Shown piece by piece: positions 13,754-47,307 of a DNA stretch of 47,440 nt. The first letter of the stretch is position 1. The number at the start of each line of letters is the position of its first letter. The translations under genes were made by a program, and so were the position numbers. Source of the stretch: Sulfuriferula sp. (GTDB lineage Bacteria; Pseudomonadota; Gammaproteobacteria; Burkholderiales; Sulfuriferulaceae). The notes under the pieces were generated by a model, which worked only from the letters and a program-made list of their open reading frames with translations, ran no database searches and was not told the DNA's origin. Location of the stretch: NCBI GenBank assembly GCA_013140765.1, contig JABFSE010000031.1:1-47440 (forward strand), in the 5' to 3' direction.

Positions 13754-13767
13754 AATTTTAAGAGGAG

Positions 13768-13940
13768 CTCCCCGCCAATGCCGTCTGACCGCTATCTTGA
13801 ACCTAGGGCTCAAGGGGTCACAGCGTAAGCACTTCAGGTACGTTAGCAAGTAACGCGCACAACAGCACTTATCAATAGCCACGACCGTTGCAAATTTATT
13901 GGTTCAAAGAATTCGCAATCTGGACGTACACCGCAGGGAA
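13768..13940 (-). ncRNA. ssrS: 6S RNA
   Basis: It lies between zapA and ygfA, the classic 6S locus. On the - strand it starts TTCCCTGCGGTGT and ends GGCATTGGCGGGG, which pair as the closing stem. The 3' half contains CCTTGAGCCCTAGGTTCAAG, resembling the CCTTGAACCAAGGGTTCAAG block of E. coli 6S RNA. The long double-stranded RNA with a central bubble binds sigma70 RNA polymerase and represses transcription in stationary phase. The ends are estimated from the stem. Confidence 0.9.
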
Positions 13941-13950
13941 CATAGTTGTG

Positions 13951-15178: not shown

Positions 15179-15624
15179 CCTCCGCTAAAATTGAGTTATT
15201 ACAGATAGAACTGCAAGGCTTACAACTTGCAGCAGAACATTTGCGTTATTCCCTGACAAGATGTGATGGTTTAACGGGAGTGCCCAACTTACCGCCCGAG
15301 CCACTCGAACGACTCGAATCGTTGGCCAGTCGTTTTGCACGCCTTGCTGACTTACTCACTCAACGTTTATTTCGCCTGATTGATGATATTGAATTGGTCG
15401 GTAACAGCACTTTGCTTGATCGCATTTATCGTGCTGAAAAACGTGGCTGGGGTAATGCATCTGACCTTATCAAAATACGAGAATTACGCAATTTAATCGC
15501 CCACGAATACAGCGGTGACCGCATGATAGAAATCTACACAGCCGTTGCTGACCTTACACCCTCTTTGCTGAATGTCGTGCCCGCAGTCACCACTTACGCA
15601 AACACACTTATTCAACGCTACTAA
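15175..15624 (+). CDS. HEPN-type (HepT-like) toxin
   Basis: A 149-aa all-helical protein with the HEPN ribonuclease signature RX4HXY visible as RNLIAHEY near residues 105-112. HEPN toxins of MNT/HEPN pairs cut RNA and are silenced by AMP addition to the tyrosine of this motif, which is present. The GTG start at 15175 overlaps the antitoxin stop. It differs strongly in sequence from the second HEPN protein in this window (26334-26702), so the two modules were probably acquired separately. Confidence 0.85.
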   Translation: MTSAKIELLQIELQGLQLAAEHLRYSLTRCDGLTGVPNLPPEPLERLESLASRFARLADLLTQRLFRLIDDIELVGNSTLLDRIYRAEKRGWGNASDLIKIRELRNLIAHEYSGDRMIEIYTAVADLTPSLLNVVPAVTTYANTLIQRY

Positions 15625-16170: not shown

Positions 16171-16176
16171 TATAAT
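16171..16176 (+). promoter_or_regulatory. -10 box of the btuB/cob leader
   Basis: TATAAT lies about 10 bases before the start of riboswitch homology. No good -35 is visible. Confidence 0.5.
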
Positions 16177-16180
16177 CCAC

Positions 16181-16350
16181 GTACTTTGTCAGGTGCGCTA
16201 CGCGAGTAGTGTTAAACGGGAAGCTGGTGCAATACCAGTGCTGCCCCCGCAACGGTAAGCAAGTGTGGACGTGTCATCCAGCCACTGTGTGTAAACATGG
16301 GAAGGCGACGCGTCAAGTCTTGCGAGCCCGGATACCGGCCTGATAATGAC
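16181..16350 (+). promoter_or_regulatory. Cobalamin (adenosylcobalamin) riboswitch
   Basis: The conserved order of a B12 riboswitch is clear: a P2-type start with the phrase GGTGC, then GGAAGCTGGTGCAATACC-like sequence (here 16218-16236), CTGCCCCCGCAACGGTAA, and the B12 box AGCCCGGATACCGGCC at 16325-16340. It lies 150 bases before btuB. Binding of adenosylcobalamin would switch off the receptor and the downstream cob genes. The spacer to btuB contains alternative pairing partners (see findings). Confidence 0.97.
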
Positions 16351-16453
16351 GACGAAACATTGCGGGGAGGCAATGATGACGTGCATCCTCACCGCGCCTG
16401 CCGCATGACGACCACTGACTGATCTATCTCTCCCCCTGTTTCATATTTGCCAC

Positions 16454-44672: not shown

Positions 44673-44747
44673 TGCTTACGCATCTGGTTTTGGCTGTGAG
44701 GTGGCGTAAAATTAGGGAGGTAAAGTAAGCGTTGTGAAAATTTGTAA

Positions 44748-44784
44748 ATAATGAGTTGACAAGCAATTCATTATATTAGAAAAT
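44748..44784 (+). promoter_or_regulatory. Promoter and operator of the 44.8-kb small RNA
   Basis: TTGACA (44756-44761) and GAAAAT (44779-44784) are 17 bases apart. An inverted repeat with 11-bp arms and one mismatch (44748-44758 with 44764-44774, 5-bp centre) overlaps the -35 box, so a regulator probably controls it. The -10 is weak. Confidence 0.55.
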
Positions 44785-44790
44785 ACTAAT

Positions 44791-44891
44791 AACGCTGATT
44801 CTTTAGCTCTTTCCCAAGAGCATTAGTGTTGTCTCCTCCATCCTCCTTCATAAGAGGATTTCAAACCCAAGCGTGTGCTTGGGTTTTTTTT
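44791..44891 (+). ncRNA. Candidate trans-acting small RNA with anti-SD motifs
   Basis: A roughly 100-nt transcript unit between roxA and the ferritin-like gene, with no reading frame. It shows three stems. Stem 1: AACGCTGAT (44791-44799) with ATTAGTGTT (44822-44830), plus inner GCTCTT/AAGAGC around TCCC. Stem 2: ATCCTC/GAGGAT (44840-44845, 44854-44859). Terminator: 10-bp stem 44863-44872 with 44877-44886, followed by eight T. Between stems 1 and 2 is unpaired CTCCTCC, and CCTCC recurs in stem 2, so it can pair with Shine-Dalgarno sequences. A promoter lies at the right distance. I do not identify it with a named RNA; the shape resembles Hfq-binding small RNAs. Confidence 0.7.
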
Positions 44892-45016
44892 GTCTGCAAT
44901 TTGTGCAATGTTAGTGCTTATTGTGGACAAAGTGCTAATTGTTCTTTGATTTGTCATTTAATAGTATTAAATTTAGGTTACTATTTATTTCAATTATCAC
45001 AATGAAAGGACGCGTT

Positions 45017-45856
45017 ATGATTTATCCAGAAGCCTTTTTAAGTTTAGAGCGTGTGCGCTGGAATATGGCGCAAGATGTGCCGTGGGATAAGTTTGATAAT
45101 GCTTTGCTGACCGATGAGCAGGCAGAAACAATTAAAATGAATGCGATTACTGAATGGTCGGCTTTGCCTGCGACTGAAATGTTTATGCGTGATTTTCGGC
45201 ATGACAGCGATTTTTCGGCATTTATGTCAGTCTGGTTCTATGAGGAGCAGAAGCACGCTTTGGTGCTGATGGAGTATTTGCGCCGTTTCCGTCCAGATAT
45301 GATGCCAACGGAAGCGGAATTACACGCTGTGCGTTTTGAATTTGACCCTGCGCCGCCGATGGAAACCTTGATGTTGCATTTTTGTGGCGAAATCCGTCTA
45401 ACGCAGTGGTATCGCTGTGCAGGGCAATGGCACACCGAGCCTGTGATTAAGCATATATATGGTTTATTGTCGGGCGATGAAGCGCGTCATGGTGGTGTGT
45501 ATTTCCGTTATATGCAGCAGGCAATTGAGCGGCTGGGTAACGAGGCGCGGGTGGCGTTTGCAAAAGTCGGCGTGTTAATGACTAGCGCATCACGCACGGC
45601 AAAGGCTTTGCACCCCACTAATTTGCATGTCAATCAATCCATGTTCCCGAACGACACCGTGCAAAGTCGTATGCCTGACCCCGCTTGGTTGGAGCATTGG
45701 CTGGATGAGCAAATTAAGTTTGATAAGCCGTGGGAAGAAAAAATCGTCACGACGATATTAACCAAGTTGTCTAATTTATTAGGACGCAGTTTTGCTAATA
45801 CCAAAGAGTTAAATCTGTACCGTAAAGAAGTCGGTGCGGCTATAGCCGCTGCTTAA
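45017..45856 (+). CDS. Ferritin-like diiron protein
   Basis: A 279-aa, largely helical protein of the ferritin-like superfamily. It carries iron ligands Glu46, EEQKH (76-80), Glu124 and DEARH (154-158), two Glu-x-x-His motifs as in acyl-ACP desaturases and related oxygenases. It is probably cytosolic. The ATG at 45017 has AAAGGA seven bases upstream; the open frame extends 26 codons further but lacks a good site. Its 3' end overlaps the convergent alcohol dehydrogenase gene by 17 bases. Substrate unknown. Confidence 0.8.
   Translation: MIYPEAFLSLERVRWNMAQDVPWDKFDNALLTDEQAETIKMNAITEWSALPATEMFMRDFRHDSDFSAFMSVWFYEEQKHALVLMEYLRRFRPDMMPTEAELHAVRFEFDPAPPMETLMLHFCGEIRLTQWYRCAGQWHTEPVIKHIYGLLSGDEARHGGVYFRYMQQAIERLGNEARVAFAKVGVLMTSASRTAKALHPTNLHVNQSMFPNDTVQSRMPDPAWLEHWLDEQIKFDKPWEEKIVTTILTKLSNLLGRSFANTKELNLYRKEVGAAIAAA

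Positions 45857-47230: not shown

Positions 47231-47307
<77 letters not shown>

Follow-up and report, generated by a model that had tools for sequence, protein, structure and literature searches.

The 47,440 nucleotides of Sulfuriferula sp. DNA analysed here, hereafter called the window, contain what is almost certainly a genuine small RNA (sRNA) gene. According to the reading we prefer, to which we give a probability of roughly 0.6, the product is an sRNA of the RF02278 kind which would mask Shine-Dalgarno sites and be de-repressed by sulfane sulfur. Sequence comparison provides the family core, a covarying structure, a predicted free seed and a conserved promoter with an inverted repeat, and also copies of this repeat at sulfur genes and its co-occurrence with a repressor gene; transcription, repressor binding, the sulfur response, the involvement of Hfq, cleavage and the targets are what we infer.

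Promoter, predicted fold and parts of the sRNA

The features of the sRNA gene are listed in Table 1. The TTGACA promoter named in a first-pass annotation of this DNA was confirmed, TTGACA and GAAAAT matching the consensus at 10 of 12 positions with a spacing of 17 nt; in a stretch of 461 bases two promoter-like sites were found, compared with 1.3 expected from shuffles. A strong intrinsic terminator, with a 10-bp stem and a T8 tract, was found as well. The interval 44748-44891 folds at −47.3 kcal/mol (z −6.69), a value which none of 200 shuffled sequences equalled. The 27-bp palindrome named in the annotation lies upstream of the inferred transcription start and is therefore a feature of the DNA, not an RNA stem.

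Table 1 Features of the sRNA gene in the window
Feature	Position	Strand	Remarks
27-bp palindrome of the first-pass annotation, over the −35 element	44748..44774		Present in the window, not conserved in relatives
−35 element TTGACA	44756..44761	+	Invariant across alignment A1 (16 sequences)
Conserved inverted repeat TATTAGAAAATACTAATA, a proposed operator for an ArsR repressor of the BigR/SqrR type	44774..44791	+	Over the −10 element
−10 element GAAAAT	44779..44784	+	17 nt 3' of the −35 element; within the conserved inverted repeat
5' helix UAACGCUGAU / AUUAGUGUUG, with inner hairpin 44806-44821	44790..44831	+	Predicted fold; covariation in 16 sequences
Transcript, inferred, about 102 nt	44791..44892	+	Placed from the −10 element and the terminator; start ± a few bases
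RF02278 match, model positions 1-64 of 64	44830..44892	+	3' 63 nt; 45.8 bits, cut-off 50, E 3.5e-8
Free anti-Shine-Dalgarno seed UCUCCUCC	44832..44839	+	Invariant in A1 and A2; RF02278 consensus has identical letters
First hairpin of the RF02278 core, AUCCUC / GAGGAU, loop 44846-44853	44840..44859	+	RF02278 alignment, predicted fold
Intrinsic terminator	44863..44892	+	10-bp stem, T8 tract; 5 of 8 stem pairs changed on both sides

Two C-rich seeds had been proposed. The first, UCUCCUCC, is single-stranded in the predicted fold (unpaired probability 0.98-1.0). The second did not hold up as a free site, being mostly paired: positions 44841-44845, in an arm of the hairpin, have unpaired probabilities of 0.02-0.06, and the segment is open only from 44846 on. 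With a free seed and its own promoter and terminator, the idea that an sRNA with an anti-Shine-Dalgarno seed could block the translation of many mRNAs is supported.

The annotation had also stated that no coding frame competes for the region. No open reading frame of at least 60 amino acids runs across the sRNA, but a frame of 59 codons with a GTG start does overlap it (44826-45005). A protein from this frame was rejected, the frame not being conserved: G001 and G008, two of the genomes compared, each lack one base inside it.

Relationship to the RF02278 family

At the curated cut-offs Rfam gave no name for the interval. The match to RF02278 (Betaproteobacteria_toxic_sRNA, the 'toxic' or double-hairpin RNA; ncS27 of Burkholderia, related to S17 of Bordetella) was obtained with a lowered threshold, the curated cut-off being 50 bits. 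This cut-off was reached neither by the window sequence (45.8 bits) nor by the copies from the same genus (about 37-50 bits, all below), and it is exceeded by relatives with the same promoter repeat, for example L082 at 65.6 bits. Because the genus copies stay below the cut-off while the repeat-bearing relatives pass it, the window RNA is, as judged from these scores, a divergent relative of the RF02278 kind and not a scored member.

The start of the core, UGUCUCCUCCA, matches the RF02278 consensus letter for letter, and the C-rich seed is therefore the seed of a described family. Two hairpins, the second of which is the terminator, are present as in the family, the first being one pair shorter than in the model. 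The open second C-rich loop site of the family is absent, CUCCUC of the model corresponding here to UCCUCC, which lies mostly in the stem. Other Rfam matches, all below the cut-offs (10 of 11 at 14-24 bits, 3 of 4 at 24 bits), were set aside as a shared terminator or chance. The first-pass annotation had regarded the RNA as new and could link it to no named RNA; with 45.8 bits and an identical UGUCUCCUCCA it belongs with RF02278. The RNA class is already known (PMC4603805, PMC5688073, PMC10987360, PMC11722255). The toxic sRNA was reportedly first described by Kimelman in 2012. Elsewhere in the window, a 6S RNA (13765-13942), a cobalamin riboswitch (16174-16357) and a tRNA (47231-47304) all scored above their Rfam cut-offs.

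RF02278 and the Burkholderia double-hairpin RNAs ncS03, ncS05, ncS27 and ncS62 share with the window RNA its 63-nt core of UGUCUCCUCCA, hairpin and terminator, which covers all 64 positions of the model. The window RNA differs from the RF02278 RNAs in its score (45.8 compared with 50 bits), its mostly paired second C-rich segment, an extra 5' helix of about 40 nt and its repeat-bearing promoter. S17 of Bordetella pertussis shares the C/U-rich 5' site, the hairpin and the terminator. S17L has about 190 nt, compared with about 102 nt here, and S17 follows the Bvg state, whereas control by sulfur is proposed here; S17 is bound by Hfq, cut by RNase E just before the core and represses through ribosome sites (PMC11722255).

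Conservation in the genus

A covariance search in relatives, proposed in the first-pass annotation, found the sRNA in 16 of the 17 other genomes of the genus Sulfuriferula (RF02278, E ≤6e-6, all below the cut-off), with pairs that covary as described below; G002, of the same genus, had no RF02278 match. At a loose E of 1, RF02278 matched 53 of 61 genomes but also 8 of 14 control genomes, and at the cut-off 15 of the 61 passed and none of the 14 controls.

Alignment A1 contained 16 sequences including that of the window. G003 was left out of both A1 and A2, since Ns replace part of its upstream sequence, including the −35 position. This genome has a second repeat-bearing promoter about 160 nt from the first (L113, G003:C208:3997 and 4158), with Ns between them, perhaps a tandem pair of sRNAs. 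The unit common to the 16 aligned sequences consists of TTGACA, 17 nt, a −10 element within the inverted repeat and then the transcribed part, in which a helix AACGCUGAU...GUGUU, starting from about the first transcribed bases, is followed by UGUCUCCUCC, the hairpin and the terminator. In the predicted structure 99.0 % of the cells pair over the 16 sequences, compared with 41-52 % in slid controls. Changes on both sides were seen in 9 of 25 pairs, and the covariation score was reached by none of 500 shuffles; the measure based on further pair types was unexceptional (62 of 500 shuffles). The pairs of the hairpin adjacent to the seed (44840-44859) are invariant in A2 except for gaps, so that covariation is uninformative there.

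The gene 3' of the sRNA (45017-45856), which has a weak FA_desaturase_2 match, is kept at 79-91 % identity in 10 of the 16 genus loci, seven of which also have roxA. Within the stretches fetched, nine of the loci are without roxA and six have neither neighbour of the window; these six have other surroundings, by eye of two kinds. From this comparison the RNA looks like an independent unit. That the interval merely forms the end of the roxA message, as the annotation itself had considered for the case of seeds without conservation, or a chance structure, is highly improbable. It does lie 118 nt past the stop codon of roxA and reads the same way, but it has its own conserved promoter and its pairs covary, and since the sRNA recurs in 16 of 17 genomes, with roxA found in 7 of the 16 stretches fetched and neither neighbour in six, it is not just the 3' part of that message.

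An inverted repeat over the −10 element

The palindrome at 44748-44774, with 11-nt arms and one mismatch, does exist; when 44680-44830 was resampled 1000 times with a first-order Markov model, 17 of the sequences held one as good. Its proposed role as a regulator site was rejected, as it is absent from the relatives in the alignment. The repeat which is conserved, over the −10 element, had been missed. An exact search with TATTAGANAATNCTAATA (44774-44791) in 399 genomes of the order gave 27 copies in 27 genomes, and none with the reversed control. Of these copies, 23 sit 51-59 nt upstream of TCTCCTCC, that is, just before the sRNA; 10 of them come from the genus and 13 from other families.

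Upstream regions of RF02278-like copies outside the genus (n = 35) had the repeat at 13-16 of 16 positions in seven cases and lacked it in 28, the 35 being the best copies in 15 genomes plus 20 further ones, which extend down to an E of about 3.3e-5 with the exception of one more G024 copy at 3.2e-6. By this comparison the repeat is a feature of one promoter branch and not of the entire RF02278 family.

Three RF02278-like loci, L212, L215 and L219 (in G049, G044 and G060), have a different seed, UUUCUCCUCUAUUUCUCC / UUUCUCCUCUAUUUCUCCUUUGUAG, and perhaps represent a sister sRNA; L212, which is among the 35, bears the −10 repeat in spite of its different seed. The repeat-less copies L083, L090, L092, L096, L213 and L214 often have a block similar to TGC-NN-TGCACAA or to GCACAAAAA before the −35 element, perhaps the 'common upstream motif' which is mentioned in PMC5688073.

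Copies of the repeat at other genes

Of the four exact copies in the order that lie away from the sRNA, one (L169/L196) is flanked by dsrE and an hdrC-like gene; tusA, rhodanese, DmsC-type and ferredoxin-type genes adjoin. A second immediately precedes the ribosome site of a DUF302 gene (L167), a third precedes a C_GCAxxG_C_C gene (L144), and the fourth (L147/L198) has no adjoining sulfur gene. A class-wide exact search for TATTAGAANNTTCTAATA gave copies in 5 of 369 genomes and none in the control. Two of the five precede rhodanese genes (L183, L184), one precedes tusA-dsrE2 (L185) and one a gene for a glycine-rich secreted protein without a Pfam match, which we take to be sulfur-globule-like in look; the remaining one is ambiguous. 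At L182 there was no adjoining sulfur gene, and no family was found for the nearby gene.

With two mismatches allowed, seven places besides the sRNA promoters were found in the genus and two in the control, so some of the genus sites are due to chance; the count excludes the second repeat beside the G003 sRNA, and six of the seven places were read (all except G007:C40:1864). One site lies upstream of a cytochrome operon that includes a SoxA/TsdA domain (L189, in G012), and two are found before one and the same gene for a PhsA-like molybdopterin oxidoreductase (L191 and L192, in G001 and G017). The sites before a nosZ-like gene (L190, G007:C13:72819, one mismatch), within a phage-like frame in G009 and before a gene of no known kind in G014 were not counted as support. 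Within two mismatches the window genome has no second site, that of the sRNA being the sole one, and TATTAG-N6-CTWATA with one mismatch gave 28 matches there compared with 27 for the reversed control.

Since the repeat also precedes sulfur-metabolism genes, these positions suggest reactive sulfur as the switch that turns the sRNA on. A rival reading is an ordinary RF02278 sRNA, in which the repeat would be a promoter or discriminator element kept by descent and control would be by growth arrest or nutrients, with no link to sulfur. Such an sRNA would agree with the coincidence of the repeat with the −10 element, with the other promoters found on most copies of the family (28 of 35 outside the genus are without the repeat) and with the rise of the Burkholderia relatives in biofilm, starvation and glucose medium (PMC5688073). 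We consider it unlikely, because in other families and orders this palindrome is also present at protein genes, several of which serve sulfur transfer, and because it co-occurs with an ArsR homologue.

A candidate ArsR-type repressor

The window genome has five HTH_5 matches, three of which are above the cut-off. The best PDB matches of one ArsR protein (G000:C40:2353-2679) are BigR, YgaV and HlyU, with 39 % identity to YgaV over 87 residues. It has cysteines at positions 40 and 106; the spacing of 66 is shared with HlyU (38/104) and SoxR (50/116), that of YgaV (31/98) being 67. Both cysteines were found in 51 of 59 ArsR loci, and of the eight exceptions two were wrongly picked frames, three had both cysteines on reading and three lacked the first one (G049, G093, G109).

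A homologue of this ArsR (E ≤1e-34) is present in all 18 genus genomes searched, including G002, which had no sRNA match, and a close homologue occurs in every one of the 17 genomes with an exact copy from the rest of the order (14 plus G031, G045 and G059). In the 14 further exact-copy genomes of the order it was found at 79-89 % in every case, whereas of 45 other genomes, taken in the order of their labels, 16 had it (Fisher 1.1e-5); these counts ignore relatedness, six of the 14 genomes being of one family. In the other set from the order (43 genomes, 16 with an ArsR homologue of at least 60 % identity), all six genomes with a repeat-bearing sRNA had such a homologue, compared with 10 of 37 others (Fisher 0.0013, relatedness again ignored). 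Co-occurrence in the class was weak, with ArsR at ≥72 % in four of five copy genomes (48 % in the fifth) compared with 19 of 50 others at ≥68 %.

Upstream of arsR itself, near copies of the repeat occur in G049 (14 of 16 positions) and G031 (13 of 16), most others having 8-12 of 16; in the window genome this promoter contains a degenerate block only (10 of 16), and an AT-rich block is common to many of 23 aligned arsR upstream sequences. The ygaV promoter of Escherichia coli holds AATTTAGAAAATACTTAAAT, which is close to TATTAGAAAATACTAATA of the window, a likeness noticed after the fact. According to PMC9774250, YgaV footprints near the start and sigma sites of the ygaV promoter, and the SqrR site is ATTC-N8-GAAT. 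Compared by eye with published operators, the repeat matches neither this SqrR site nor that of HlyU, TAATTCAGACTAAATTA.

Alternatively, the repeat could be the operator of another regulator, for example another redox or sulfur sensor of the same bacteria. The differing SqrR and HlyU sites, the degenerate blocks in the genus arsR promoters and the presence of ArsR also in 16 of the 45 order genomes that have no exact copy would fit with this. We nevertheless hold it to be distinctly unlikely, given that the ArsR accompanies the exact copy in 17 of 17 genomes from the rest of the order, and given the near copies before arsR in G049 and G031 and AATTTAGAAAATACTTAAAT in the E. coli ygaV promoter, where YgaV footprints. 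The BigR, SqrR, YgaV, SoxR and sHdrR regulons share with the system proposed here a two-cysteine repressor homologue in the genome and a repeat near sulfur-metabolism genes; the regulated gene here is an sRNA, whereas in the papers surveyed on those regulons the regulated genes were protein genes.

Seed, Hfq and predicted targets

The C-rich sRNAs of Neisseria work by a C-rich seed directed at Shine-Dalgarno sites; the likeness to the window RNA is one of working principle, and no kinship is claimed. GGAGGA-N2-9-ATG occurs 28 times in the window genome, compared with 8 times for the control; the naming of targets is weak, a frame of at least 60 amino acids opening at 13 of the 28. Both soxX and soxA, identified above the NCBIfam cut-offs, are among the 13 (L221 and L222, G000:C1:13939-13951 and 15237-15249), with the ribosome sites GGAGGAU and GGAGGAC. 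The best predicted sRNA duplex was with the mRNA of a putative outer-membrane protein (−23.2 kcal/mol). On this prediction soxX and soxA are possible targets.

Two Hfq matches are present in the genome (95 and 92.2 bits, cut-off 27). A CU-rich segment of the Burkholderia double-hairpin RNAs is reverse-complementary to ribosome sites, the same pairing is proposed for ncS27 and overproduction of ncS27 slows growth (PMC5688073); pairing of S17 with ribosome sites was tested in a reporter, and E. coli cells producing S17 grew exponentially without impairment (PMC11722255).

Proposed regulation and its meaning

In the mechanism we favour, the sRNA of about 102 nt would be made from its own sigma70-type promoter and end at its own terminator. 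A dimer of the BigR/SqrR/YgaV-like ArsR protein, bound to TATTAG-N6-CTAATA over the −10 element, would keep it off. Reactive (sulfane) sulfur would bridge the two cysteines of the repressor, as is reported for the BigR/SqrR/YgaV subfamily, so that the repressor is released and the sRNA made. The sRNA would probably act with Hfq, perhaps after cleavage just before UGUCUCC, and UCUCCUCC would pair with ribosome sites of the GGAGGA type and lower the translation of many mRNAs, with the outcome that translation is re-set while reduced sulfur is available. The targets may include sulfur-oxidation genes (soxX, soxA), which would give a feedback brake. On balance we lean towards the view that in sulfur-oxidising Burkholderiales a Shine-Dalgarno-masking sRNA is under the direct control of an ArsR repressor responsive to sulfane sulfur and forms an RNA branch of a regulon of the BigR/SqrR type.

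A sulfur-controlled RNA of the RF02278 kind was not found in the literature searched, judged by titles or the beginnings of abstracts, and the Burkholderia authors describe the regulator of sRNA accumulation there as yet unknown (PMC5688073). What seems new is the conserved repeat, together with its connection to sulfur genes and an ArsR protein of the sulfane-sulfur type. The double-hairpin RNAs are widespread in Betaproteobacteria, and one branch of them has a conserved, recognisable promoter repeat and a candidate repressor in the same genomes. If the proposed regulation is true, the sensing of reactive sulfur would be tied to a wide control of translation.
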